In this document: piece after piece, positions 2,583-35,210 of the stretch
How positions within the stretch are numbered: position 1 is the stretch's first letter
Layout: every line of letters begins with the position of its first letter
DNA from: Tellurirhabdus rosea
GTDB lineage: Bacteria; Bacteroidota; Bacteroidia; Cytophagales; Spirosomataceae
Direction: 5' to 3'
Length of the DNA: 64,000 nucleotides
Assembly (NCBI RefSeq): GCF_026278345.1
Contig: NZ_CP111085.1
Location: forward strand, 2,368,001-2,432,000
The notes under the pieces: model-generated
Seen by the model: only the letters and a program-made list of their open reading frames with translations
The model's database searches: none
Told to the model about the DNA's origin: nothing
Made by a program: the position numbers and the translations under genes

Positions 2583-4061
2583 ATGTTCGTCCGACTTCTG
2601 TTTCTGCTCCTCCTGCCCGCCGTCGCTCTTTCACAGACGACCCTGAATCCGAAAGCATCCGGCTACAACGGAATCTGGTATTTTATTGGTAAAACGGGGA
2701 ACGCCTACGCCCACAAATACAGCGGCGGACTGGGCACGTATCCGGCCAATCACTACCCTTTCTCGGTCTACGCCCCGGCCGTCCGGAAAACGTTCTTCTG
2801 CTACGGCGGCGTTCTGGATTCGACAACTCAGAAGCTCTGCCACTTCGTCGGGTTTTATGACCACCGCACCGGCCAGGTTTCCCGCCCCACGCTGCTGCTC
2901 GACAAACAGACGGACGACGCCCACGACAACCCGATCATCCAGCTCGACGACCGGGGCTACATCTGGATTTTCTCGACCTCCCACGGTACCGAACGACCTT
3001 CCTTTATCCACCGCAGCCGCCAGCCCTACGGCATCGACGCCTTCGACCCCGTGGCCGCCACCCGCCTCGACGAAGCGGGCAGGCCGGTGCCTTTCGACAA
3101 TTTCTCGTATGTGCAGAGCTACTACCAACCCGGTCGGGGCTTTCTGAACCTGATGACCCATTACGACCGGGGCGTGCTGGTCTACGGAGCGAATAAACCC
3201 CGGCGGACCATGAGCTTCATCACCAGCCCGGACGGCCAAACGTGGTCGGCCTGGCAGGACCTGGGCACCATCGAAGAAGGGCATTACCAGACCAGCGGGC
3301 AGTGGCGCAACAAGATCGGCACGGCCTTCAATTATCACCCCAACACCCAGAAAGGCAGCGGCCTCGACTACCGGACCAACCTGTATTACCTCGAAACGGG
3401 CGACTTCGGCAAAACCTGGAAGACGGCCGGGGGCCAGACCGTGGCCCTTCCCCTGCGTGACCCGGCCCATCCGGCTCTCGTGAAAGAGTACAAAAGCGAA
3501 GGCAAAAACGTCTACATCAACGACGTGGCCTACGACGGGCAGGGTCGGCCCATCCTGTTTTACCTGACCAGCAAAGGCCCCGAACCCGGCCCGGAGAACG
3601 GCCCTTACCAGTGGAACACCGCCTGGTGGAACGGTCGGCAATGGGAAATCCGGGAGGTTGCCCAATCGGACCACAATTACGACATGGGCTCGCTGTACGT
3701 TGAGGGTGGACTCTGGCGCATCATCGGTCCGCTCGAACCCGGTGGGCAGCCCTTCGGCACGGGCGGCGGGCTGGCAATGCTCGAAAGCCGGGATCAGGGC
3801 AGGACATGGCAGAAAGTGAAGTCCCTGACGCCCGGCAGCGAACGGAACCATTCCTACCCGCGTCGCCCCGTCGGTGCCCATCCGGACTTTGTGGCGCTCT
3901 GGGCCGACGGCAACGCGCGCCAGGTTTCGCCTTCCCGCTTGTACTTTTGCAATCAGCAGGGACAGGTCTTCCAGTTGCCGACCGTCATGAAAGCCGATCT
4001 GGAAAAGCCTGTCCCCGTTTTCACAACACCGGTCCGGAAGACCCCTAATGAACCGAAATGA
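2583..4061 (+). CDS. Secreted BNR-4 repeat protein
   Basis: The 492-residue product has a signal peptide (about 1-18, ending ALSQ) followed by a sialidase-like beta-propeller of the BNR-4 type: blades carry motifs such as DDRGYIWIFSTSHGTERPSFIHRS, SPDGQTWSAWQDLG and ESRDQGRTWQK. BNR-4 proteins are found in Bacteroidota and Planctomycetota carbohydrate loci; substrate cannot be inferred. A -7-like word (TACCTTTCG, 2525-2533) precedes it. Its stop codon overlaps the next start (ATGA, 4058-4061), so it is translationally coupled to the GreA-C-like gene. A 611-codon open frame opposite is a GC-rich shadow. Confidence 0.88.
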   Translation: MFVRLLFLLLLPAVALSQTTLNPKASGYNGIWYFIGKTGNAYAHKYSGGLGTYPANHYPFSVYAPAVRKTFFCYGGVLDSTTQKLCHFVGFYDHRTGQVSRPTLLLDKQTDDAHDNPIIQLDDRGYIWIFSTSHGTERPSFIHRSRQPYGIDAFDPVAATRLDEAGRPVPFDNFSYVQSYYQPGRGFLNLMTHYDRGVLVYGANKPRRTMSFITSPDGQTWSAWQDLGTIEEGHYQTSGQWRNKIGTAFNYHPNTQKGSGLDYRTNLYYLETGDFGKTWKTAGGQTVALPLRDPAHPALVKEYKSEGKNVYINDVAYDGQGRPILFYLTSKGPEPGPENGPYQWNTAWWNGRQWEIREVAQSDHNYDMGSLYVEGGLWRIIGPLEPGGQPFGTGGGLAMLESRDQGRTWQKVKSLTPGSERNHSYPRRPVGAHPDFVALWADGNARQVSPSRLYFCNQQGQVFQLPTVMKADLEKPVPVFTTPVRKTPNEPK

Positions 4062-22154: not shown

Positions 22155-22224
22155 CACGGGGATTCCAATTGAAGTTTCTAAACTGACTTGCGTGTGGGAG
22201 GCTTACGTAAAAAACGGAAAACTC

Positions 22225-22257
22225 TGTCTTTTAGCATCCCACGAAACGTATCTTTGC
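22225..22257 (+). promoter_or_regulatory. Probable promoter of ribBA
   Basis: TATCTTTGC at 22249-22257 matches the Bacteroidota -7 consensus TAnnTTTG exactly, about 60 bases before the ribBA ATG. The -33 element is weak (a TCTTTT run around 22227-22232). Confidence 0.6.
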
Positions 22258-22316
22258 GCAATGATGTTTCCAAGGCAGCAAGCAACAGACGTACCAAGCG
22301 CCTGCCATTTACCTTC

Positions 22317-23603
22317 ATGAACAACACGCATTCCGATATAAAGATGCTAAACGGGGAAAATAGTAACGTCACTCCCCCGCCCGTCCGGCTCGATTCGATC
22401 GAAGAAGCCATTCAGGATATTCGCGACGGGAAAATTATCATCGTGGTGGACGACGAGGACCGGGAAAATGAAGGCGACCTGATCTGCGCCGCCGAAAAAA
22501 TCACCCCGGAAATGGTCAACTTCATGGTGAAGGAAGGCCGCGGCCTGATGTGCGCCCCGCTGACCGAAGAACGCTGCGAAGAACTGGGCCTCGAAATGAT
22601 GGTCACCAGCAATACGTCCGTTCATACCACGCCGTTTACGGTTTCGGTCGACCTGCTGGGCAACGGCTGCACGACGGGCATCTCCGCCTCCGACCGCGCC
22701 AAAACCATCCGGGCCCTGGTCGATCTGGAAACCAAACCGGAAGACCTCGGCCGTCCGGGACATATCTTCCCGCTCCGGGCCGTGCACGGCGGTGTGCTGC
22801 GCCGGACCGGCCATACCGAAGCCGCCGTGGATTTCGCCCGCCTCGCCGGACTGGCTCCCGTGGGCGTACTGATTGAAATACTGAACGAAGACGGCACGAT
22901 GGCCCGCCTGCCGCAGCTTCGGGAAATTGCCGATAAATTTGGAATGAAACTCGTGAGCATTCAGGACCTGATCGAATACCGCCTGAAAAAGGAATCCCTC
23001 ATCAAACGGGAAATCGGCGTGGACATGCCGACCGAATGGGGACATTTTGAACTCATCGCCTACAAATCGCTGGCCACCGGCGATACCCACCTCGCGCTCA
23101 TCAAAGGAAGCTGGGAGAAGAACGAGCCCGTCATGGTGCGCGTCCACTCGTCCTGCATCACGGGCGATATTTTTGGTTCCTGCCGCTGCGACTGCGGCGG
23201 ACAGCTCCACGGAGCGATGGAACTCGTCGAAAAGGAAGGCAAGGGCGTGGTGCTGTACATGAACCAGGAAGGCCGCGGCATCGGGCTGCTCAACAAACTG
23301 AAAGCCTACAAGCTGCAGGAGTCCGGCATGGATACCGTCGAGGCCAATCTGGAACTGGGCTTCAAGATGGACGAACGAGATTATGGCGTCGGTGCGCAGA
23401 TTCTCCGCGACCTGGGCATTCACAAAATCAAGCTCATTTCGAATAACCCCAAAAAACGCGCCGGCCTGATGGGCTACGGGCTGGAAATTGTGGACACGGT
23501 GCCGCTTCAGATTCCGTCCAACCCGCATAACGAGCGTTACCTGCAAACCAAGCGCGACAAGATGGGCCACATGCTGACCCACCTGACCGACAAGCATCTG
23601 TAA
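22317..23603 (+). CDS. ribBA: Bifunctional DHBP synthase / GTP cyclohydrolase II
   Basis: The start at 22317 gives 428 residues. Residues about 20-225 are RibB ([45 protein letters not shown]), making dihydroxybutanone phosphate from ribulose 5-phosphate. Residues about 226-420 are RibA, with the zinc cysteines in [17 protein letters not shown] and the [12 protein letters not shown] motif, opening GTP. Together they feed both branches of riboflavin synthesis. The frame is open 43 codons further upstream, but those lie across the promoter-like element, so they were excluded. No FMN riboswitch was recognised upstream. It ends 9 bases from the convergent sugar operon. Confidence 0.96.
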
Positions 23604-23612
23604 ACCGGCCCG

Positions 23613-25088
23613 CTACCCGCGCCACGTCCGCACGGCCTCCCCGGCACCGGACAGGGTTTTCAGGTTCATTTCGGAATATTTCCGCGACAGAATAATCCCG
23701 TCGGAGCCGCCCCGCAGGGCCGCTTCGACGGATGTTTTCAGCCCCGCCGCGCCCAGATTGCGCTCATTTCCGGCCGAGGGCAGGTCTACGTCGATACCGG
23801 CCAGCACCTGCGTCGGGGCGTCGCCGAGTCCGGTCCGGATGCGGCGCGTTTCGTTGGTGATGTATTCGCTGCTGAAGCCCTTGGTCGTCAGTTCGCTGAA
23901 CCCCGGCTGGTTGTAGCCCATGATGGCGTATTCCAGTTCCAGCATCTGCTCGGGTGTCAGGTCGCCGTACCAGGCCATTGTGGCGTTTTCGATGTACTTC
24001 GCCATGCGGTTGCCGATCACGGATTCGTACATGGTCACTTTCAGGAAATCGCTGTACGGGGCCATGGCGGGCCAGTCCTGTTCGGCGCGGTAGAACGGGT
24101 TCAGGCCGTTGTTGACCGCAATCGCCCACCCGACCTGCGTCCGGGGTCGGTCTTTCTTCACAAAAGCGTACACATCGCGGTACATCCGCTGCAAACTATC
24201 GGTCTGAAAGGTCTGCCACTGCAGGATTTCCGGATAACGCAGCAGCAGGCGCAGAAACGTCACGTGGAAGCCGTCGTTGGGGCGTTTCCCGGCACGGCTC
24301 TGGGCCACAAATCCTTCCAGCTTTTCGTAGCCTTCCTGCACCCGCGCGAGGTTGATGCCCTGCGCCCGGCCAAGCCGCTGGCAGTGTTCGCAGAAACAGG
24401 TCGGTTCCGAGAAGCCGAGGTGCGTCAGGCCCATCGTTTTGCTCAGCGGCCCGATCCGTTCGCTGCGGTAGAGCAGCCCGTCCACGTCGTAACTCGTCAG
24501 GCAGTCGGCAAGCAGGCCAAACAGGACTTCCCGGTACGACTCGTTGTTCATGCAGACCTCGCCCCGCGGCTGGCCCGTGCGGCTGCGCTCGACCAGATTT
24601 TCGAAGGCTTTTACGCCGTGCCGGATGTTGTCGGCAAAGAACACGTACGTTTTCAAACCGCGTTTTCGGGCGGCAGGAATGACTTCTTTCAGCACGTCGA
24701 AACCGGGCAGGTCGGGCGAGCGGAAGGCTTCGTACAGCGGACTTTTGTGAAATTTCGGGTGCAGCGTGGCGTAGTAGCCGCCTTTGAAACCGTCGTCGCC
24801 GAGGTAGATTTTTTTGCCGTGGTCGGGAAAGGGAAAGCCCTTGAGCTGCCGCCCGGCCAGCCCGTCGTTGAAGGCCAGCACGGTGATGAAAATCGTGTTC
24901 ACCGCCGCGAGCCGCTGCACGTTGTCGAGCACCGCTTCCACACCTTCGTCCACAAACGACACGGCCGGAATCTGGATGCCGATGAGTTTGTCCCGCCCGG
25001 GCGAACCCGCAACGGCCGAAAAAGCCGGGACTGTGGGCAGGGCCGCCGCTGCCAGGGCTGTATTCACTAAAAATTCACGTCGATTCAT
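23613..25088 (-). CDS. Tat-exported TIM-barrel glycoside hydrolase-like protein
   Basis: The start at 25086-25088 gives 491 residues with a twin-arginine leader (NRREFLVNTALAAAALPTVPAFSAVAG). The rest reads as a TIM barrel: DEGVEAVLDNVQRLAAVNTIFITVLAF, VIPAARKRGLKTYVFFADNI, DVDGLLYRSERIGPL, then CFCEHCQRLG (about residue 231), WAIAVNNGLNPFYRAEQD and GGSDGIILSRKYSEM. Proteins of this appearance belong to uncharacterised glycoside hydrolase-like families; the CxCxxC motif suggests a structural metal or disulfides. It is the last gene of the seven-gene sugar operon, 16 bases after an enolase-superfamily gene. Enzymatic activity is not established. Confidence 0.75.
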   Translation of the reverse strand: MNRREFLVNTALAAAALPTVPAFSAVAGSPGRDKLIGIQIPAVSFVDEGVEAVLDNVQRLAAVNTIFITVLAFNDGLAGRQLKGFPFPDHGKKIYLGDDGFKGGYYATLHPKFHKSPLYEAFRSPDLPGFDVLKEVIPAARKRGLKTYVFFADNIRHGVKAFENLVERSRTGQPRGEVCMNNESYREVLFGLLADCLTSYDVDGLLYRSERIGPLSKTMGLTHLGFSEPTCFCEHCQRLGRAQGINLARVQEGYEKLEGFVAQSRAGKRPNDGFHVTFLRLLLRYPEILQWQTFQTDSLQRMYRDVYAFVKKDRPRTQVGWAIAVNNGLNPFYRAEQDWPAMAPYSDFLKVTMYESVIGNRMAKYIENATMAWYGDLTPEQMLELEYAIMGYNQPGFSELTTKGFSSEYITNETRRIRTGLGDAPTQVLAGIDVDLPSAGNERNLGAAGLKTSVEAALRGGSDGIILSRKYSEMNLKTLSGAGEAVRTWRG

Positions 25089-25104
25089 AAACGATTTTCC
25101 TGAT

Positions 25105-26331
25105 TTAAACGACCCGTTCGGCCCCTTTCCAGATGCCTTCGTCGTACTGGATTCCGAGCCCCGGCGTCTCGGGAATGGCCATCCTCCCCTGCTGCACCCG
25201 CAGGGCGGGCGTGTACCACGAAGCGGGCTTTTCACCCGGATTATAAACAAATTCCTGCAGGCCGTAGAGATTGGGCACCAGCGCGGCCACCTGCCAGAAC
25301 GGACCGATAAGCGGATCGGCTTTGGGCGTATGCGGCGCGATGGTTTTCCCGAGCTGGCCAACGATGGCCGATACCTGCAAGGTCCGCAGAATCCCGCCGT
25401 TGTAGTACAGATCGGGTTGCAGCAGGTCGTACACGCCCGTTTGGGCCAGCCGCTGAAACCGGTACAGGCTCGAATCCTGCTCGCCGCCCGCCAGCACGAT
25501 TTTGGTCAGCGCTTGGTTCACCTGCCGCATGCCTTCCTCGTCCTCAAACGGGCAGGGCTCTTCAAAAATCGCCACGCCGTACTCCTCCAGAAACCTGCCC
25601 GTCCGGATGCCCTGTTCGGGCGTGAAGGAGCCGTTGCCGTCGGCGTAAATCGTGACGCGGTCGCCGAGCTTCTTCCGGACCAGCGGCACAAACTGCCGGG
25701 TGCGGCGGTCGTCCTCGTCGGTGTTCTGCATCCGTCCGCCGACTTTGATCTTCACGCCCCGCGCGCCGGTAACGGCCAGTTTTTCGGCCAGCCGGTCCAC
25801 CACGGCTTCGGCCGGGTCGCCACCCCGCCAGAAATCGGAGATGTAGACTTCGTAGTCGTTCCGGACGGGTTTCCCGAGCAGGGCGTAGACCGGCTTGCGC
25901 GTCAAACGGCCCAGCAGGTCCCAGACGGCGATTTCGACCGAGCCGATGCAGTTCCAGAGCGGCATTCCAGCGTACTTGTAGTTGCTGTTGAGGCGGTAGG
26001 CGTTATCGACCAGTTGCGGCAGGTCGCGGGCGTCTTTCCCGACAAAATGCGGCAGCACCAGCCCTTTCAGCAGCGAGGTGAGATTCGGCATCCGGTCGTT
26101 GCACTGGGTCACGCCCCGGCTGCCGTCCTGCGCCGTCACCACCAGCAGGAGCCGCCCCTGCGTTTTGAGCAGTTCCACCGAACGGATCGGCACCGGGTCG
26201 GGCAGCGCTTTTTTTAGATCGGGCAACGGCCAGACGGGGAGCGGGGCGGCGGAGACACCGGCCACCGATATACCCATCAGGCTCAGGGCACTCAGGGCGG
26301 TCAGCTGTTTCAGAAAATGGGTTCGGTTCAT
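25105..26331 (-). CDS. Exported enolase-superfamily enzyme (MR-like) 1
   Basis: The 408-residue product has an export signal (MNRTHFLKQLTALSALSLMG, cut near VSAA) ahead of a mandelate racemase/muconate lactonising fold. Catalytic signs are a KxK motif (GVKIKVGG), three metal ligands in order (Asp of YADGNG, Glu of FEEPC, Glu of GGEQDSS), the Asp of LQPDLYYNGG and the His of APHTPK, which form the Asp-His dyad. Family members abstract a proton alpha to a carboxylate, as in sugar-acid dehydratases. Periplasmic location is unusual and is inferred from the leader. It lies 36 bases after the second enolase-like gene. Confidence 0.88.
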   Translation of the reverse strand: MNRTHFLKQLTALSALSLMGISVAGVSAAPLPVWPLPDLKKALPDPVPIRSVELLKTQGRLLLVVTAQDGSRGVTQCNDRMPNLTSLLKGLVLPHFVGKDARDLPQLVDNAYRLNSNYKYAGMPLWNCIGSVEIAVWDLLGRLTRKPVYALLGKPVRNDYEVYISDFWRGGDPAEAVVDRLAEKLAVTGARGVKIKVGGRMQNTDEDDRRTRQFVPLVRKKLGDRVTIYADGNGSFTPEQGIRTGRFLEEYGVAIFEEPCPFEDEEGMRQVNQALTKIVLAGGEQDSSLYRFQRLAQTGVYDLLQPDLYYNGGILRTLQVSAIVGQLGKTIAPHTPKADPLIGPFWQVAALVPNLYGLQEFVYNPGEKPASWYTPALRVQQGRMAIPETPGLGIQYDEGIWKGAERVV

Positions 26332-26367
26332 CGTCGATCGGGCGCTTGGGAAAACAGGACGGTTCGA

Positions 26368-27564
26368 TTAGTACTTAAAGAGCGCTTTGGCCCTCTTCTC
26401 ATTAACGACCAGCCCCAGACCGTTCTCTTTCGGTAGCAGCATCTCGCCATTTTTGAATTCAAGACCCTGGTCGAAGATCGAGCAGATGGTGGCGTAGCGG
26501 TCGGCTTCGATGTATTCCACCATCGGCCCGCAGTTCGGAATGGCCGACAGAATCTGGATGGTGGCGGCGCTGCCGAGCATCGGTTTGGTGTTGTGCGGCA
26601 CAATGCCTTTGTGGTAAACCTGCGCCAGATGGCAGATTTTCAGTCCTTCGGTGATGCCGCCCGATTTGATAAAATCCGGATTGATCAGGTCCGGCCGCCC
26701 GGTTTTCATCAGCTCGTCGAACATCCAGCGGTTGTAGCATTTCTCCCCGGCCATGACGGGGATGGTCATCGCATCGACCACCGTAGCCAGGTCGCGCAGG
26801 TTTTCGTTGGGGCACGGGCTTTCGTAAAATTTCATGCCCAGACCTTCCAGCGCCTTGCCGATCTCGATGGCCCGGTAGCCGGTATAACCTTCGTTGGGGT
26901 CCAGAAAAAGATCCACCGAATCGGGCAGGGCTTTCCGGATGGCCGTGTAATATTTCAGGCTGGGATCGTCTTTCGGGTTGATGTTGTACTCCCGGATCTG
27001 CGCGCGGATTTTGACGGTTTTAAAGCCTTTTTCGGCCAGCTTAACGGCCTGTTTCACCGCCTCGTCCACCGGAATGGTCCCGGCCTTGATGCCGAAGCCC
27101 GCATAAGCCGGAACGCGGTCGCGGAATTTTCCGCCGATGAGTTTATAGACCGGCACTTTCAGCAGTTTGGCTTTCAGGTCCCAGAGCGCACAGTCGACGC
27201 CCGCGATGGCGTAGGTCAGCGCACCGCCCCCGCCGAGGTCGTGGTTTTTCCAGAACATGGCCTCCCAGAGCCGCTCGGTATCGAACGGACTCTGGCCGAC
27301 CACCTCCCGTTTCAGCAGGTCGTTGATAATGGCCTGGATGGCCCGGATGCCGTTGGCGCTGCTTTCGCCCCAGCCCACCGTCCCGTCCGTGGCCTCGATG
27401 CGGACGTACACGCCCCGGTCGTAGCCATCCTGAAAAACGAGTCCTTTGACATCTTTCACCCGGATGTCGTCCGGCAAGTCGGGCTGTTGCGCGAGAGCCG
27501 GCAGGGCGAGGGTTCCCAGGCCCAGCAGGGCGGTTTGGCGGAGGAATTGTCGTCGTGTATTCAT
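26368..27564 (-). CDS. Tat-exported enolase-superfamily enzyme (MR-like) 2
   Basis: The 398-residue product begins with a twin-arginine leader (NTRRQFLRQTALLGLGTLALPALAQ). The MLE/MR fold follows: the barrel entry with TVKIRAQ (KxR), metal ligands in FLDPNEGY, YESPCP and AGEKCYN, the dyad Asp in NPDFIKSGGITEG and the His in VPHNTKP. This pattern is typical of acid-sugar dehydratases and epimerases; the exact substrate needs structure or assay. It differs clearly from its neighbour, so the two are probably sequential enzymes or act on different epimers, not recent duplicates. It follows susD by 61 bases. Confidence 0.9.
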   Translation of the reverse strand: MNTRRQFLRQTALLGLGTLALPALAQQPDLPDDIRVKDVKGLVFQDGYDRGVYVRIEATDGTVGWGESSANGIRAIQAIINDLLKREVVGQSPFDTERLWEAMFWKNHDLGGGGALTYAIAGVDCALWDLKAKLLKVPVYKLIGGKFRDRVPAYAGFGIKAGTIPVDEAVKQAVKLAEKGFKTVKIRAQIREYNINPKDDPSLKYYTAIRKALPDSVDLFLDPNEGYTGYRAIEIGKALEGLGMKFYESPCPNENLRDLATVVDAMTIPVMAGEKCYNRWMFDELMKTGRPDLINPDFIKSGGITEGLKICHLAQVYHKGIVPHNTKPMLGSAATIQILSAIPNCGPMVEYIEADRYATICSIFDQGLEFKNGEMLLPKENGLGLVVNEKRAKALFKY

Positions 27565-27625
27565 GGTCAGCCTGCGGCGGGAAGGCGTTTTGTCGGCCGA
27601 AACGCCTTCCCGCCGCTAGTGAAAG

Positions 27626-28993
27626 TTAGTAGCCTTTATTCTGATCCAGATTCGGGTTCAGGTCAATCTCCCGGGTGGGCACCGGCCAGAGGATGAAATC
27701 CGGGTTGGTCAGGCCGGGAATGGTTCCGACGGCCTTGTTCCAGCGGACGAGGTCGTACCAGCGGTGGCCTTCCAGGCAAAGCTCCAGATAGCGCTCGTTT
27801 TCGATCGCCAGCCGCAGGGCGGCCTGTGTCGTCGCCGTGGTGGGAGCCAGTCCTGCCCGCGTCCGGATCTGGTTCAGGAACGGGATGGCCTCGGCGGTGC
27901 GGCCCAATTCGTTGAGGCATTCGGCCCGCAGCAGCACAATATCGGCCAGCCGGAGCAGGACCACATTACTGGTCTGCGTGCCCCGGTTGGTGGTGGTCGG
28001 AGGGCCCTGTTCGTACTTGCGGGTGTAGTTCCGGTTGTTGAACGTCGCCACGCTGATGGCCGCCCGCCCATCGCCGGTACTGGCCGCAAACGCCTGCATC
28101 AGTTTATTTTCCGGAGCCAGCCGGTAGGCCGATCCCGAAAACGGCACCGTCTCGCGGTCCAGCCCGTGCCCTTCGACGGCCGTGCTGGGCCGGTACGAAA
28201 TTTCAAACAGGGTTTCGGGCGTATTCTGTCGGCCGGCCGCAAACAGATCGGCATAACTGGCGCCTGCCACCAGCCGGTACTGCGAATCCGCCATCACTTC
28301 CTCGCATTCTTTCAGGGCCAGATCGAAATCGCCCTGCGCGCCCCGCTGGAGGTAGACCTTCGCCAGCCAGCCGCGGGCGGCTCCTTTGGCGGCGCGGGCC
28401 CGGTTGGTATGCTGGACGGGCAGAAGTTTTTCGGCTTCCAGCAGGTCGGCGATGATCTGCCGGTAAACGTCGGCCACTTCACTGCGCTTCAGCTGAAAAT
28501 CCTGGGCCGACGATTTGGAGGGCTGCAGCGGCAGCGGAATTTTGCCGTAGAGCCGGGTAAGGTGGAAGAAGGCCAGCGCCCGGCCGAAGTACGCCTCACC
28601 CAGCACGCGGTCTTTGGCCAGCGCCGGGTCGTTGATGGCCGGGACGTTCGCCAGCACGTCGTTGGCGGCGTGAACGGCGAAGTAATAATCCCGCCAGAAA
28701 TCGCTCACGTTGCCCTGCCCCGGCTGCACCGTGAAGGCTTCATGGCGCGTGAAGTTCCCGCCCGAAACGGCCCGGCCGTCGTCGCCCATCACGCTCGGCA
28801 CGATGATGACGTTCTGCGTGACCGGTGCCTGCAGGAAGTTGTACATGTTCATCAGGCCCGCCTCGGCATCACCGGCCGTCTGCCAGAAATTCTGGGCCAC
28901 AATCTGGCTGATGGGCGACATCTCCAGCATCGAATCGCAGGCCGTCAGGCTCAGGAACGCCGCCGCCAGGGTAAGTCTTTTTATCGTTTTCAT
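27626..28993 (-). CDS. RagB/SusD family outer-membrane lipoprotein
   Basis: The 455-residue protein has a lipoprotein signal (FLSLTAC, Cys at about residue 19), the N-terminal helical TPR-like region (NFWQTAGDAEAGLMNMYNFL, WRDYYFAVHAANDVLANVPAI) and the C-terminal SusD part ending LRLAIENERYLELCLEGHRWYDLVRW. SusD-type proteins form the lid over the paired SusC channel and capture glycans or other nutrients at the cell surface. It begins 12 bases after susC, as usual for these pairs. Confidence 0.96.
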   Translation of the reverse strand: MKTIKRLTLAAAFLSLTACDSMLEMSPISQIVAQNFWQTAGDAEAGLMNMYNFLQAPVTQNVIIVPSVMGDDGRAVSGGNFTRHEAFTVQPGQGNVSDFWRDYYFAVHAANDVLANVPAINDPALAKDRVLGEAYFGRALAFFHLTRLYGKIPLPLQPSKSSAQDFQLKRSEVADVYRQIIADLLEAEKLLPVQHTNRARAAKGAARGWLAKVYLQRGAQGDFDLALKECEEVMADSQYRLVAGASYADLFAAGRQNTPETLFEISYRPSTAVEGHGLDRETVPFSGSAYRLAPENKLMQAFAASTGDGRAAISVATFNNRNYTRKYEQGPPTTTNRGTQTSNVVLLRLADIVLLRAECLNELGRTAEAIPFLNQIRTRAGLAPTTATTQAALRLAIENERYLELCLEGHRWYDLVRWNKAVGTIPGLTNPDFILWPVPTREIDLNPNLDQNKGY

Positions 28994-29005
28994 GATTCGT
29001 TCGGG

Positions 29006-32000
29006 TTAAAAGCCTAGGTTCAGTCCCACCGTGACGACGCGCGCCTGGGGCTGCGTCAGGTAATCGACACCCAGCGACGGAATGCGCCCGCCGCCCGTGT
29101 TCTGGCTCTCGGGATCGAAACCGGAGTAATTGGTCAGCGTAATCAGGTTCTGGCCGCTGACGTACAGCCGGGCGTTGCTGAGCCGGATGCGCTGGAGCAG
29201 CGCCGTCGGGAAGGTGTAGCCCAGGGTGATGTTGCGGAAACGCAGAAACGAGCCGTCTTCGAGGTAGCGGTCCGAGACGTCGGTCGGGGCCGCGCCGCTG
29301 ATGGCCGACGAGCCGTAGAGCGGTTTGGGAACGTCCGTCACATCGCCGGGTTTCTGCCAGCGCCGCAGCACGTCGGTGCTCTGGTTCAGGTCTTCGATCA
29401 TGCCCGTCAGTACGGCTCGCGTCATGTTGTAGATCTGGTTGCCGTACGACCAGTTCATCACCACGCTCAGTTCCAGCCCTTTGTAACTGAAGGTATTGGT
29501 CAGCCCGCCAATGTGGCGCGGCAGGGCGTTGCCGATGATGACGCGGTCGAACTGGCGGGAGAAGAACCCGTCGTTGTTCACGTCCAGAAAGGCCGCTTCG
29601 CCCGCCCGGACGCCCCGTTCGTACAGGTCCGTGACGGCGTTGGTCGGGTCCTGAATGCGCGGAATATCCTCGTTGGTCGAATAGACGCCGAGGTAGCGGT
29701 AGCCGTAGAAATTACCGACCGACTGCCCCACGCGGTAGACGGTGTACGGCCCTTCGACCCCGTAGGCATCCGGCAGTTTGAAAATAAAATCGGACCCGAG
29801 CGCCCCGTTGTCGGGCAGGTAGGTGATGCGGTTGCGGTTGAAGGAAATGTTAAAATTGGTCGTCCACTTCAGGGCGCCGGTCAGGTTGCGGGTGTTGAGC
29901 GTAAACTCCAGCCCGCGGTTTTCCATCGTGCCGATATTGGCGTTGCCGATGGATTCAAAGCCCGAGGTCCACGGCAGCTGACGCTGGAAAATCAGGTCTT
30001 TGGTTCGTTTCAGGTACGCTTCGGCCGTCAGGCTGACGCGGCTGTTGAGGAGCGAAATATCGAGTCCGGCGTTGGCCGCCGCCGTCGATTCCCAGCCCAG
30101 TTCGGGATTCGGAATGTTGGATTGACCGATGCCGGGATTGCCGTCGTAGTTTCGCCCGGTGCCGTACAGGGCCAGCGCCGGATAATCGCCGCCCAGCCCT
30201 TCCTGGTTGCCCGTGACGCCGTAGCCCACCCGCAGTTTCAGGTCGTTGATGAGCGGATTGTTTTGCAGGAAAGGTTCCTCCGAAATGCGCCAGCCAACCG
30301 ACAGCGCCGGAAACGCGCCGTAACGTTTGTTGGCCCCGAAGCGGCTCGACCCATCGACGCGGAAGCTGGCGTCGGCCAGGTATTTGTCCTTGTAATTATA
30401 ACTGGCCCGGCCAAAATAGGACAGCAGCGCCCATTCGGACAGGCTGTGAATTGGCGTGTAGGGGTCGGCAATGGCGATTGTCTTGATGATGTTCGACCCG
30501 GCCGTCTGCCCGCCCGCCTGCAGGAAGTTGTTCTGGGATTTCTGGAGCCCTACCCCGCCCAGCACCGTAACCGTGTGCGCACCGAACTGCTGCCGGTACG
30601 TGAGCGTGTTGTCACTCAGCCAGGTAAACTGATCGCTGTCGACGGCCAGCGCCTCGGCCCGGCCGTTGCGCGAGAGCACATAACTCGGCACAAACCGCTC
30701 CTGCCGGTCGTCGAGGTTGTCGATGCCGAAGGTCGAGCGGAAGGTCAGGTTTTTCAGAATCTGGTATTCGGCGTACAGATTCGAAATGACCCGTTTCTGG
30801 GTGCTCTGAAACAGGACGTCGCTGGCCAGCATCACCGGGTTTTCGTTCAGCAGCGGGTCGGTCGGATACGTTCCGTCGGCGTTCCGGACGGGCAGGTTGG
30901 GGTTGCGTGTCAGGGCGTTGGCCAGAATCGAAAAACCGCTATAATCGTTGGCTACGCGGTTGGTCCGGGCAATGCTCAGCAGCGTGCTCGTCCCGAATTT
31001 TAGCCGGTCTGTGGCCTGGTAATCGAGGTTAATGCGCAGGTTGAAGCGGTTGTAATCCTGCCCGATGATGGTTCCCTGCTGCCGGAAATAACCCAGCGAC
31101 ACAAAGCTGCTCGTGCGCTCGTTGCCCCCCGCCACCGAGAAGTTGTAATTGCTGATGGGCGCGGTACGGAAAATCTGGTCCTGCCAGTCGGTGTTGAGGC
31201 CGGTCGGCTTCACGTCGCTGAACGGAAACTCCGTCAGCGGGTTGCGGCCCCGGTTCACCAGCGATTCGCGCAGGATTTCCACAAACTGATCGCCGTTGAG
31301 CAGGTCGAGCCGTTTGGTTACGTTCTGGACTCCCGTGTAGGCATCGAAGCTGAACCGGGCCTTGCCCGACTTGCCGCGCTTGGTCGTGATGAGCACCACG
31401 CCGTTGGAACCCCGCGCCCCGTAGATGGCGGCAGCGGCGGCATCTTTCAGGATATCAATGCTTTCAATGTCGTTTGGGTTCAGGTCGGCGAGGGCCGAGG
31501 TGCGCTGTCCACCGGCGTCGAGCACCGTTCCGCCGAAATTGTTCAGGGGAACGCCGTCGACCACAAACAGGGGCCGCGTTTCGCCCAGCAGCGAGGCGGT
31601 GCCGCGGATGCGGATGAAAATTTCCCCGGCGGGCGACCCGGAGTTCTGCACCACCTGAACCCCGGCGGCTTTCCCCTGCAACAGGGCGTCCGGGCTCGTG
31701 ACGGGCTGGTTCTGCAAATCCCGGCTTTTCAGGGACGTGATGGAACTGGTCAGGTCGCGCTGCTGGGCCGTGCCGTAGCCCACCACGATCACTTCGTTGA
31801 GCGCCCGGGTATCGGGGGTCAGACTCAGATTGAGGGTGCTGTGGTTGCCAACCGGTACCTCCTGGGGCAGATACCCGACAAAGGAGAAGACCAGCGTCAC
31901 GGCTCCGTCGGGCACCGACAGGGCGTAGCGACCGTCGGCATCCGTGCTCGTGCCGCGCGTAGTGCCTTTGATGGCGACGCTGACCCCCGGCATGGGCTGG

Positions 32001-32428
32001 CTGTTGTCCGACCCGGTCACCTGTCCGGTAACCCGGCGTTCCTGCCGGACTTCAGCCGGGGCGACCGGAGCCGGTTTTTCGCGGAGAATGTACAGCCGGC
32101 TGCTGACCGCTTCGTAGGTAAGTCCCACCGGCGAAAGCAGCGCCTCCAGTGCAGCGGGCAGGTTATCGGCCTGGACCGGGTTTAGCAACGGTTTTCCGTC
32201 GAGGAGGCGGCTTTCGTACCCAAACCGGACCTTAAACCGGCCTTCCAGGTCCCGGAGCGCCTGCCGGAGCGTGACGGTCTGCCGCGGGGTAGAATCGATG
32301 CGAAACAGAGTCGGGCCGTTTTTGGCCAGCAGGCCCTGGGCCGAAACGGGCAGCGTACTCACCACAAGCAGGGCACAGAGTACAGTCCGACCGATTTTTT
32401 TAAGCCATACATAGAAGTTCATGTGCAT
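29006..32428 (-). CDS. SusC/RagA TonB-linked outer-membrane transporter with STN domain
   Basis: The 1140-residue protein has, in order, a signal sequence (LCALLVVSTLPVSAQG), an STN/secretin domain (residues about 45-115, TVTLRQALRDLEGRFKVRFGYES), a carboxypeptidase-regulatory-like domain (RRVTGQVTGSDNSQPMPGVSVAIKGTTRGTSTDADGRYAL), a plug with the SusC signature (ALNEVIVVGYGTAQQRDLTSS) and a 22-strand barrel. It imports substrate in a TonB-dependent way; the STN domain means it also signals to the FecR-type anti-sigma encoded 6 bases upstream. The first of two in-frame ATGs was chosen. Confidence 0.96.
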   Translation of the reverse strand: MHMNFYVWLKKIGRTVLCALLVVSTLPVSAQGLLAKNGPTLFRIDSTPRQTVTLRQALRDLEGRFKVRFGYESRLLDGKPLLNPVQADNLPAALEALLSPVGLTYEAVSSRLYILREKPAPVAPAEVRQERRVTGQVTGSDNSQPMPGVSVAIKGTTRGTSTDADGRYALSVPDGAVTLVFSFVGYLPQEVPVGNHSTLNLSLTPDTRALNEVIVVGYGTAQQRDLTSSITSLKSRDLQNQPVTSPDALLQGKAAGVQVVQNSGSPAGEIFIRIRGTASLLGETRPLFVVDGVPLNNFGGTVLDAGGQRTSALADLNPNDIESIDILKDAAAAAIYGARGSNGVVLITTKRGKSGKARFSFDAYTGVQNVTKRLDLLNGDQFVEILRESLVNRGRNPLTEFPFSDVKPTGLNTDWQDQIFRTAPISNYNFSVAGGNERTSSFVSLGYFRQQGTIIGQDYNRFNLRINLDYQATDRLKFGTSTLLSIARTNRVANDYSGFSILANALTRNPNLPVRNADGTYPTDPLLNENPVMLASDVLFQSTQKRVISNLYAEYQILKNLTFRSTFGIDNLDDRQERFVPSYVLSRNGRAEALAVDSDQFTWLSDNTLTYRQQFGAHTVTVLGGVGLQKSQNNFLQAGGQTAGSNIIKTIAIADPYTPIHSLSEWALLSYFGRASYNYKDKYLADASFRVDGSSRFGANKRYGAFPALSVGWRISEEPFLQNNPLINDLKLRVGYGVTGNQEGLGGDYPALALYGTGRNYDGNPGIGQSNIPNPELGWESTAAANAGLDISLLNSRVSLTAEAYLKRTKDLIFQRQLPWTSGFESIGNANIGTMENRGLEFTLNTRNLTGALKWTTNFNISFNRNRITYLPDNGALGSDFIFKLPDAYGVEGPYTVYRVGQSVGNFYGYRYLGVYSTNEDIPRIQDPTNAVTDLYERGVRAGEAAFLDVNNDGFFSRQFDRVIIGNALPRHIGGLTNTFSYKGLELSVVMNWSYGNQIYNMTRAVLTGMIEDLNQSTDVLRRWQKPGDVTDVPKPLYGSSAISGAAPTDVSDRYLEDGSFLRFRNITLGYTFPTALLQRIRLSNARLYVSGQNLITLTNYSGFDPESQNTGGGRIPSLGVDYLTQPQARVVTVGLNLGF

Positions 32429-32434
32429 ACGGAA

Positions 32435-33523
32435 TTAAGGATTCACCGGACGGGCCGCCCGGATCAACAGGGTTTTGTCTTGTCGGATAATGTGCAGCGA
32501 AAACGCTCGTTCGAGCGCGGTCAGAAGAACATCCAGATTGGAATCGGGCAGGGTTGCCGTCAGGCGGCGGGAGGCCAGCGCGGGGTCTTCGAGGGCAACC
32601 CGGTAGCCGTAATTTTCTTCGATCAGCGTCGCAATGTCAGACAGCGGCGTTTCTTCGAAAACGAGTTCGTCTTCCGTCCATGACGAGTGCTTGTCGGCTT
32701 CGATGCGGCTGTGCAGCGAAATGGCCTGCTGTTCGCTCACTTCGACCAGGTCGCCCGGCAGCATGTCCAGCGTCCGTTTCGCCACGTTCAGCCGGATTTT
32801 GCCTTCGTTGAGCACGACCTTCACGCGGCGGTGGCGGGTCGATACGTCGAACTGCGTCCCAAGCACCTCCACCCGGACCCCCGCGGCCCGCACGGCAAAT
32901 TTCACGCGCTGTCCGTCGCGCTGTTGCTTCCGGACGCGGAAAAACGCCTCCCCGTTCAGCCTCACCTCGCGCTTTCCGTCCGCCCAGCCGGGCGTCAGGG
33001 CCAGTTCAGAATTGGCGTTGAGGGTCACGACCGACCCGTCGGGCAGGGTCAGTTCGCGGCGTTCGCCGAAGCCGGTGCGGTACACCACGGCATCCGCCGC
33101 CCCGGGCGCTTCCGAAGCCGGTGCGGATCGGGGAGCTTGGGTCGCCACGGGCGTTTCGGCGGGCTGTCCCGCCTGCTGGCTGTACCGCCAGATTCCCACG
33201 AAGCCGACCAGCAGCAGCACGGCGGCGGCGGCCCGTCCAACCGGACCAGAAACCCAGCGCTGCCAGCGGGGCCTGCGCAGGTCTACCAACTGCTGCACTT
33301 TCCGGATTTCGTCTTCGAGCTGGTCGGGGGGCAACTGGCGGGGGCGGTACGCCGCCAGGGCCTCGACGAGCCGGGCGGCGGCCTCCACATCCGTCCGCCG
33401 GTCGGGATGACGGGCCTGCCATTCGTTCCAGTACCGCACCGCTTCCGGGTCGCTGCCGTGAACGAAGGCCCGGAACGAAGGGTCGTCGGCGAGGCTAAAC
33501 GGGTTGAGGGAATCGGAGTTCAT
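32435..33523 (-). CDS. FecR-type anti-sigma factor
   Basis: The 362-residue product has an N-terminal cytoplasmic sigma-binding part, one membrane helix (about residues 97-112, AAAAVLLLVGFVGIW), a periplasmic FecR domain (VVYRTGFGERRELTLPDGSVVTLNANSEL and GEAFFRVRKQQRDGQRVKF) and a C-terminal DUF4974-like part that contacts the transporter STN domain. It holds the sigma factor encoded just upstream until SusC signals substrate. It is 60 bases from the sigma gene and 6 bases from susC. Confidence 0.95.
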   Translation of the reverse strand: MNSDSLNPFSLADDPSFRAFVHGSDPEAVRYWNEWQARHPDRRTDVEAAARLVEALAAYRPRQLPPDQLEDEIRKVQQLVDLRRPRWQRWVSGPVGRAAAAVLLLVGFVGIWRYSQQAGQPAETPVATQAPRSAPASEAPGAADAVVYRTGFGERRELTLPDGSVVTLNANSELALTPGWADGKREVRLNGEAFFRVRKQQRDGQRVKFAVRAAGVRVEVLGTQFDVSTRHRRVKVVLNEGKIRLNVAKRTLDMLPGDLVEVSEQQAISLHSRIEADKHSSWTEDELVFEETPLSDIATLIEENYGYRVALEDPALASRRLTATLPDSNLDVLLTALERAFSLHIIRQDKTLLIRAARPVNP

Positions 33524-33583
33524 GTCCTGCTTTTTTTTACAGGACGGACGACGGCGGCCCTTTTACCGGTTTTCTGAAAAAAA

Positions 33584-34189
33584 TTATCCGAAAAATACCG
33601 AACCCAGGTACAAAGTCGCCAGGCGGTTCAGCCATTCGGGCGGGAGTTGCTGGCGGAGCGTGTTGAGCCCTTCGTGAACGAGGTTGTAGACGGTGCGTTC
33701 GCGGATGTCCATGATGCGGGCAATGTCGGCATAGTCCAGTTCCTGAAAATACCGCAGAAAGACGGCTTCCCGCTGCCGCCGGGGCAGTCGGTTGAGGGCA
33801 TCGGCCAGTTGCTGCGAGCGGTGGAGCCGGGTGGTTTCTTCGATCAGAAAGTCTTCGGGCGAAAAGACAAAGTCAGGCTGCAGGGCGGATTCCTCCGAAT
33901 CGGACCAGAAGATGGTCGGCACGAAGCGTTTGTTGCGCCGCTGGTAATCGATGAGCCGGTGGCGGAGCGACACCAGCAGGTACGCCCGGATGGATTCGAT
34001 GGTACTCCACTCGTGGCGACGGTTCCAGAAGGCCAGAAACGTTTCCTGAATGCAGTCCTTGGTCGTTTCCTCGTCGCCGCGGGTGAGTTTGAGACCGTAG
34101 TCGTAGAGCAGGTTATAATGCTGCTGCATGAACTGGGCCAGCCGGGCTTCGGGTGTCCCCGACGAAGAGGCGGTAGAGTTGACGTTCAT
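33584..34189 (-). CDS. ECF RNA polymerase sigma factor (FecI-like)
   Basis: The start at 34187-34189 gives 201 residues; an in-frame stretch of 20 codons upstream is open but not needed. Region 2 (YNLLYDYGLKLTRGDEETTKDCIQETFLAFWNRR) and region 4 (LPRRQREAVFLRYFQELDYADIARIMDIRERTVYNLVHEGLNTLR) are both intact, with a linker and no region 3, as in group IV sigma factors. It is the first gene of the seven-gene operon and is expected to turn it on when released by the FecR-type protein. A CGTAC word on its strand lies about 40 bases upstream (34228-34232). Confidence 0.94.
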   Translation of the reverse strand: MNVNSTASSSGTPEARLAQFMQQHYNLLYDYGLKLTRGDEETTKDCIQETFLAFWNRRHEWSTIESIRAYLLVSLRHRLIDYQRRNKRFVPTIFWSDSEESALQPDFVFSPEDFLIEETTRLHRSQQLADALNRLPRRQREAVFLRYFQELDYADIARIMDIRERTVYNLVHEGLNTLRQQLPPEWLNRLATLYLGSVFFG

Positions 34190-34388: not shown

Positions 34389-35210
34389 ATGAAACGCCTC
34401 GTTTACACCTTTACTGCCGCCCTGCTGCTGGCGGGACTGCTTTCCTGCGAAGACAAAGAAACCGCTCCGGACCCGGGCGTTCTGGTCAGCCAGACGACCC
34501 TCGGCAACGTTTTGACCGACGAAAGCGGACGGACGCTCTATTTCTTTGCCAACGACACCGACGGCAATTCGGCCTGCACCGGCAACTGCCTGACCAACTG
34601 GCCCGTTTTTTACCGGGAAACTATGCCCAACCTGGCCACCAGCCTCAACGCTGCGGATTTCAGCACCATTACCCGCGCCGACGGCACCAAACAAACGGCC
34701 TTCCGGGGCTGGCCGCTGTACTATTACGCCAAAGACAGCAAGGCGGGCGACCTCACGGGCGAAAACGTCGGCAACATCTGGTTCGTGGCCAAACCCGACT
34801 ACAGCATCATGTTTGCCAACCGGCAGCTGGTCGGTCACGACGGCAAGAATTACACGAGCGATTACAAGGAAGGCACCGGCAGCACCGTCTTCCTGACCGA
34901 TGGCCGCGGCAACACGCTTTACGGCTTCGCGCGCGACAAACGCAACAAAAACAACTACACCCGGGCCGATTTCAGCAACAACGCCATCTGGCCGATCTAC
35001 GAAGTCACGCTGAAGGACATTCCCTCGACCCTCGACCGGACGCAATTCGGTACGATTCCGGTGGGGAACCGGACGCAGCTCACTTACAAAGGCTGGCCGT
35101 TGTATTATTTCGGGCAAGACACCAAACGCGGCGACACCAAAGGCGTCAGTTTCCCGTCGCCGGGCATCTGGCCGATCATCCAGAAGGACACGCCGGTAGC
35201 GCCGGAATAG
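34389..35210 (+). CDS. Lipoprotein with two PF03640-type secreted repeats
   Basis: The 273-residue product has a lipoprotein signal (LLLAGLLSC, Cys about residue 20) and two copies of the secreted repeat of COG4315: LGNVLTDESGRTLYFFANDT...SACTGNCLTNWPVF and TDGRGNTLYGFARDKRNKN...NNAIWPIYEV, each followed by a FRGWPLYYYAKD / YKGWPLYYFGQD block. Only the first copy keeps the Cys pair. Function is unknown; it is anchored in the envelope. A shared promoter motif suggests control by the ECF sigma encoded next. Confidence 0.88.
   Translation: MKRLVYTFTAALLLAGLLSCEDKETAPDPGVLVSQTTLGNVLTDESGRTLYFFANDTDGNSACTGNCLTNWPVFYRETMPNLATSLNAADFSTITRADGTKQTAFRGWPLYYYAKDSKAGDLTGENVGNIWFVAKPDYSIMFANRQLVGHDGKNYTSDYKEGTGSTVFLTDGRGNTLYGFARDKRNKNNYTRADFSNNAIWPIYEVTLKDIPSTLDRTQFGTIPVGNRTQLTYKGWPLYYFGQDTKRGDTKGVSFPSPGIWPIIQKDTPVAPE

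Follow-up and report, generated by a model that had tools for sequence, protein, structure and literature searches.

A compact SusC/SusD unit with FecI- and FecR-type genes

Within a 64,000-nucleotide stretch of the Tellurirhabdus rosea genome (contig NZ_CP111085.1, positions 2,368,001 to 2,432,000; hereafter the window, with positions counted from its first letter unless a locus is named), seven genes lie on the minus strand in one compact unit that runs from 34189 down to 23613. The first encodes an extracytoplasmic function (ECF) sigma factor of the FecI type (33584..34189, with an ATG start codon at 34189; Pfam Sigma70_r2 1.2e-10 and r4_2 2.2e-16, NCBIfam sigma70-ECF 6e-26), and the second a FecR-type anti-sigma factor/signal transducer (32435..33523; Pfam FecR 6.5e-19, FecR_C 2.5e-9). 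These are followed by a SusC/RagA TonB-dependent transporter (29006..32428; TIGR04056, E = 1.2e-274) and a SusD-family surface lipoprotein (27626..28993; SusD_RagB 2.5e-37, SusD-like_3 1.4e-24), the two genes adjoining as a Sus-like locus requires. The unit ends with two members of the mandelate-racemase (MR) subgroup of the enolase superfamily, which we call E1 (26368..27564; MR_MLE_N 1.1e-17, MR_MLE_C 2.9e-47) and E2 (25105..26331; MR_MLE_C 4.4e-43), and with T (23613..25088), a TIM-barrel protein that, judged by its predicted fold, is glycoside-hydrolase-like and of an uncatalogued family. From the sigma factor to T, the intergenic gaps are 60, 6, 12, 61, 36 and 16 bp. A preliminary description of this DNA had presented the seven genes as one tightly spaced unit, and the shared strand, the gaps of 6-61 bp and the gene families all agree with it.

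The mechanically called open reading frame for T begins with a TTG at 25361 and runs into E2, so that translation probably begins instead at the ATG at 25088 (MNRREFLVN...). By eye, the N-terminal region of SusC resembles STN, the receptor's signaling domain in FecI-FecR-TonB signaling, and its match to the STN profile falls under the cut-off (E = 0.19, 12 bits; cut-off 28.4). A terminator scan did no better than background, and a promoter scan was uninformative, the sigma-70 pattern used not being a Bacteroidota one.

Two MR-subgroup enzymes and a TIM-barrel protein with export-type N-termini

Enolase-superfamily carbon-acid chemistry belongs to the textbook cytoplasmic metabolism of small acids, and enzymes of the MR subgroup take the proton alpha to a carboxylate. 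Both E1 and E2 have MR_MLE N- and C-terminal domains, and when the two are aligned with the cousins of E1 the catalytic residues prove to be retained, in E1 as K185-x-R187, D222, E248, E274, D297 with H324, and E350, and in E2 as K-x-K with the equivalent D, E, E, D/H dyad and E in all 25 sequences. The basic pair of strand 2 is therefore K-x-K in E2 and K-x-R in E1, and three acidic metal ligands at strands 3-5 are present along with the His-Asp dyad. The nearest NCBIfam equivalogs are galactonate, arabinonate and gluconate/galactonate dehydratases, with every score far under the curated cut-off (at best 192.7 bits against 311 for E1, and 124.3 against 750 for E2). A sequence search of the PDB placed E1 nearest to 3n4e and 4ggb, and E2 nearest to 3tcs, 3u4f, 3t8q and 3t9p. 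To judge from their sequences, E1 and E2 are active-looking members of the MR subgroup without an assigned specificity.

The residues of E2 could be taken to mean that E1 and E2, once exported, act solely as epimerases or racemases, converting an imported uronate or hydroxy acid into the isomer accepted by an inner-membrane carrier or a cytosolic pathway, with no net degradation. One face of E2 bears the K-x-K and the opposite face the His-Asp dyad, which together form the two-base set of MR-subgroup racemases and epimerases, and the solved sequences nearest E2 are labelled 'racemase, putative'. However, dehydratases use the same residues, the second lysine is replaced by arginine in E1, and the presence of two distinct enzymes in the operon speaks for more than a single step. 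We consider this explanation distinctly unlikely.

Both enzymes had been described as carrying export signals, which is clear for E1 and less so for E2. The N-terminus of E1 (MNTRRQFLRQTALLGLGTLALPALAQ; MNTRRQFLRQ..ALPALAQ) is a clear twin-arginine translocation (Tat) signal with the motif TRRQFLRQ, and RR-x-F-[LF] occurs in all six E1 sequences, the window included. The N-terminus of E2 (MNRTHFLKQLTALSALSLMGISVAG; MNRTHFLKQ) has a hydrophobic stretch, but its motif (NRTHFLK) is degenerate, the second arginine being gone (R-T). Among E2 relatives, counted from a printed list with L093_8 taken from an internal start, a signal-like R-x-x-F N-terminus is found in 25 of 25 sequences (window included) and RR in 13 of them, and the pattern in E1 and E2 goes beyond coincidence. 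The possibility that E2 is not exported owing to the lost arginine was set aside because every E2 orthologue has a signal-like N-terminus. TatC is encoded in the genome. The rarity previously ascribed to export in this superfamily was overstated: besides the true enolase, the genome has ten MR-type members, E1 and E2 included, and five of the ten have Tat-like N-termini (E1, E2 and those on loci L001, L004 and L010). Export would thus be an ordinary trait of the family in T. rosea, and finding it in E1 and E2 is less surprising. Besides E1 and E2, three MR-type paralogues with Tat-like N-termini were noted elsewhere in this genome, at L096 9210-10490, L108 10060-11535 and L109 9297-10706.

T was introduced earlier as a third Tat-exported TIM-barrel protein, and its N-terminus (MNRREFLVNTALAAAALPTVPAFSA; MNRREFLVN) does contain a clear twin-arginine motif. 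T has no match in Pfam, NCBIfam or a PDB sequence search. An AlphaFold model built from 20 relatives (pLDDT 86) is a TIM barrel, with Cwp19 and the PgaB hydrolase domain (Z ~26) as its nearest folds, followed by GH42 and GH164 (Z range 21-26), at 11-15% identity to these neighbors. E210 is invariant and follows strand 4, the place where GH-A-like enzymes carry their acid/base, and R80, Y354 and Y471 also follow strands at the C-terminal face; an invariant carboxylate at strand 7 was not seen among the aligned relatives. The barrel fold is thus that of GH42, GH153 and GH164, with no match to them at the sequence level. On the strength of the model we call T a putative glycosidase-like enzyme of an uncatalogued family. 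Accordingly, the earlier statement that the unit contains no recognized glycoside hydrolase (GH) or polysaccharide lyase (PL) stands as far as Pfam and NCBIfam profiles are concerned, but the predicted fold of T is glycoside-hydrolase-like.

T is rare: among 222 family genomes 6 have a homologue, and in a sample of the phylum 1 of 395 does. In four relatives (L032-L035) SusC/SusD loci contain tandem copies of T, one with a Tat signal and a second without a signal peptide, which suggests a periplasmic/cytoplasmic enzyme pair; a PDB sequence search with L033_1 gave nothing useful. Distant cytoplasmic T relatives (27-31% identity) were found in Rhodobacteraceae and Acidobacteria metagenome-assembled genomes (L017-L021), in a conserved gene cluster together with Xaa-Pro dipeptidase-like genes and, by eye, aminotransferase-like and peptide ATP-binding cassette (ABC) transporter-like genes. 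An explanation of T alone drawn from these peptide-linked relatives was ranked low. The same cluster is a reason to ask whether the whole unit serves a non-carbohydrate substrate, such as an aromatic hydroxy acid or an amino-acid conjugate, and SusC/SusD relatives can import peptides. However, the Bacteroidota loci that were read have no such genes around E1 or E2, the neighbors there being glycan and acid-sugar genes, and we regard a non-carbohydrate substrate as very unlikely.

Linked genes in other genomes and in Tellurirhabdus rosea

The 222 family genomes and the 395-genome phylum sample also served to follow E1 and E2, with genes of the relatives' loci called by a simple codon-usage script on the fetched loci, so that some starts are approximate. 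E1 (at least 79% identity) occurs in 6 of the 222 genomes, in each case no more than 17 kb from E2 and together with the same SusC/SusD; in the five genomes other than that of T. rosea, E1 is 79-82% and SusC 75-83% identical, with SusD and E2 nearby. Co-occurrence of E1 with E2 in the family genomes has a hypergeometric P of 9e-7, kinship ignored. E2 is spread more widely (24/222), and its tree shows no single origin for the E1-linked state. Between E1 and E2, four of the five other E1 genomes encode a 345-aa protein and a WD40 protein, and three a 745-aa protein without a Pfam match. In L066 (9038-13496) the 745-aa protein, which has PHP-like histidine motifs by eye, and the 345-aa protein are both without a family match and accompany the WD40 protein; for the 745-aa protein a PDB sequence search gave nothing useful and there was no match in the T. 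rosea genome.

A cousin of E1, here E1b (36-38% identical to E1), lies no more than 10 kb from E2 in six other genomes (L070, L071, L080, L087, L088 and L089), and in the phylum sample it is present in three of the five E2 genomes (hypergeometric P 1e-5, kinship ignored). The pairing of E2 with E1b is repeated across other genera. Glycan-cleaving genes recur beside this pair: GH28 in L070, L071, L088 and L089, GH2 in L070, L087, L088 and L089, and, in L080, heparinase II/III, a CE15-type glucuronoyl esterase, a GH43-like protein and a BNR_4 protein. Acid-sugar and transport genes are found there as well, namely a dicarboxylate symporter in L071, tagaturonate reductase (UxaB), a GntP permease and glycerate kinase in L087, and a galactonate-type major facilitator superfamily (MFS) carrier in L088. 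In L106, E1b is surrounded by glucuronate isomerase (UxaC), UxaB, a UxaA/galactarate/altronate-type dehydratase, ManD, 2-keto-3-deoxy-6-phosphogluconate (KDPG) aldolase (Eda), a galactonate-type MFS carrier, GH28 and GH2; E2 was not present in the 20 kb read around this E1b. PF03747 (ADP-ribosylglycohydrolase-family) proteins, unexpected company in a glycan locus, accompany GH28, GH2, E1b and E2 in L070, L088 and L089, with Tat-like N-termini in L070 and L088.

These neighbors bear on a rival explanation, in which SusC/SusD would import a small aldonic or aldaric acid, or a lactone, and E1 and E2 would be periplasmic dehydratases making a 2-keto-3-deoxy acid for a KdgT- or GntP-type carrier. 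The closest curated profiles are acid-sugar dehydratases, GntP and glycerate kinase adjoin E1b and E2 in L087, and a T homologue in L036 adjoins SusC/SusD, KdgT, PdxA, a D-threonate-kinase-like protein and a sulfatase; the acid-sugar permeases of L087 and L036 in particular keep this explanation alive. T. rosea itself encodes three GntP permeases and a KDPG aldolase. On the other hand, all profile scores are far under their cut-offs, glycan-cleaving genes recur next to the E1b/E2 pair, cytosolic ManD and a UxaA-type dehydratase are already encoded in L106, and the predicted fold of T is glycosidase-like. We therefore view import and dehydration of a free acid as possible but doubtful. Lactone uptake, which had been put forward for the unit, found no evidence in the analysis.

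Elsewhere in the T. rosea genome, at ~151-158 kb (L111 10422-16918), a cluster encodes an MFS carrier, KDPG aldolase, a PfkB kinase, UxaC and GH88, and is likely a cytosolic hexuronate route. Also in the window, but outside the operon and 20 kb away from it, a plus-strand gene (2583..4061) encodes a BNR_4 beta-propeller protein (BNR_4, 4.8e-16), orthologues of which (~60% identity) lie 2-4 kb from E2 in L075, L079, L080 and L092. A PDB sequence search with this protein gave nothing useful. In a fold comparison, its moderate-quality model (pLDDT 71) came closest to the PL25 ulvan lyase (Z 29.6), followed by GH145/PL42 (Z 26-28). FoRham1 of PL42, a Rha-GlcA lyase, likewise belongs to the BNR_4 proteins (PMC8377490). 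Taken together with FoRham1, the likeness of the modeled fold points to glucuronate-type linkages, and the protein is a possible uronate-lyase partner. Of the genes flanking the operon, a convergent one (22188-23603, ribBA-like by eye) is separated from the end of T by 9 bp, and upstream of the sigma factor a divergent gene (34389-35210) encodes a secreted protein with three Lipoprotein_15 repeats.

Proposed processing of a uronate-bearing saccharide and comparison with known systems

Given the gene content, the intact active sites, the export-type N-termini, the conserved linkage and the hexuronate cluster of the same genome, we infer a substrate class, an order of steps and, above all, a reaction. 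The locus would be a FecI/FecR-regulated system for SusC/SusD-mediated uptake of a uronic-acid-bearing saccharide and its processing in the periplasm, a proposal whose chances we put at about even. SusC/SusD would carry the saccharide across the outer membrane, and the glycosidase-like T would trim it in the periplasm. There the metal-dependent E1 and E2, exported by the Tat or general secretory (Sec) route, would take a proton from the carbon beside the uronate carboxylate, resulting in 4,5-elimination or C5 epimerization of the uronyl residue or, alternatively, in dehydration of a released sugar acid. A hexuronate-type carrier would then move the product across the inner membrane, to enter the cell's usual hexuronate pathway, whose genes lie elsewhere on the chromosome.

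Sugar-acid chemistry in the periplasm had already been suggested for this unit, and it gains support from export-type MR enzymes with full active sites, from their co-inheritance with SusC/SusD and from the acid-sugar genes of sister loci. The accompanying suggestion, of a locus for small molecules unlike those for polysaccharides, is not supported, given GH28, GH2, heparinase II/III, CE15 and BNR_4 in the relatives and the glycosidase-like T. As to the reaction, the acidic proton of a uronyl unit is C5-H, so that 4,5-elimination or C5 epimerization is likely, whereas that of an aldonate is C2-H, which would lead to a 2-keto-3-deoxy acid. We favor periplasmic uronyl chemistry over ordinary aldonate dehydration because L106 combines a complete cytosolic hexuronate pathway that has its own dehydratases with glycan-cleaving partners; as those dehydratases are cytosolic, the exported E1b probably acts earlier. 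A bolder version, in which E1 and E2 act directly on uronyl residues of oligosaccharides, by 4,5-elimination or C5 epimerization, and T represents a new glycoside hydrolase family, seems to us rather unlikely.

Several observations weigh against the saccharide proposal as a whole. E1 and E1b are only 36-38% identical, which makes it uncertain that the substrate of one can be transferred to the other. E2 often occurs without E1 or a SusC/SusD locus (L073, L078, L081 and L093), the other E1 loci have the 745-aa, 345-aa and WD40 proteins in place of T, and a Pfam/NCBIfam scan of the operon proteins revealed no lyase or named glycoside hydrolase. Furthermore, enolase-superfamily enzymes are known to act on free small acids and are not known to act on glycan-bound uronate.

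Sus-like polysaccharide loci under FecI/FecR control likewise combine an ECF sigma factor, FecR, SusC, SusD and exported enzymes further downstream in a single operon. However, such loci have named carbohydrate-active enzymes (CAZymes) downstream, whereas here there are two enolase-superfamily proteins and the uncatalogued glycoside-hydrolase-like T, and none of the three matches a recognized CAZyme profile in Pfam or NCBIfam. E1 and E2 share the two-domain family and catalytic set of MR-subgroup acid-sugar dehydratases and cycloisomerases (galactonate, arabinonate and talarate/galactarate profiles; 3n4e, 4ggb, 5olc and 3tcs), but differ in their export signals and in scoring under every curated equivalog cut-off. 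Similarly, T shares the barrel of the PgaB hydrolase domain, Cwp19, GH42 and GH164 (Z 21-26), but is only 11-15% identical to them, matches no family profile and shows no invariant strand-7 carboxylate among its aligned relatives. Hexuronate (Ashwell) clusters with GH28 and GH2 include E1b in L106, whereas in T. rosea the pathway genes lie apart from the operon.

A search of the open-license literature for enolase-superfamily enzymes with SusC/SusD, polysaccharide utilization loci, Tat signals or C5 epimerization returned no relevant paper; two papers describe sugar-acid pathways in which SusC/SusD is not involved (PMC5507952, PMC10444878). SusC/SusD loci, FecI/FecR control, MR-subgroup enzymes and hexuronate clusters are each known already. 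What is new, relative to the open-license papers searched, is the combination of a SusC/SusD locus with a co-inherited pair of export-type enolase-superfamily enzymes. Its recurrence points to a step of uronate-glycan use that takes place in the periplasm and that current locus annotation would miss because neither E1 and E2 nor T is counted as a CAZyme. If the bolder version above is correct, the locus would represent an enolase-superfamily route to the job of polysaccharide lyases or uronyl epimerases, and T a new family of glycoside hydrolases.

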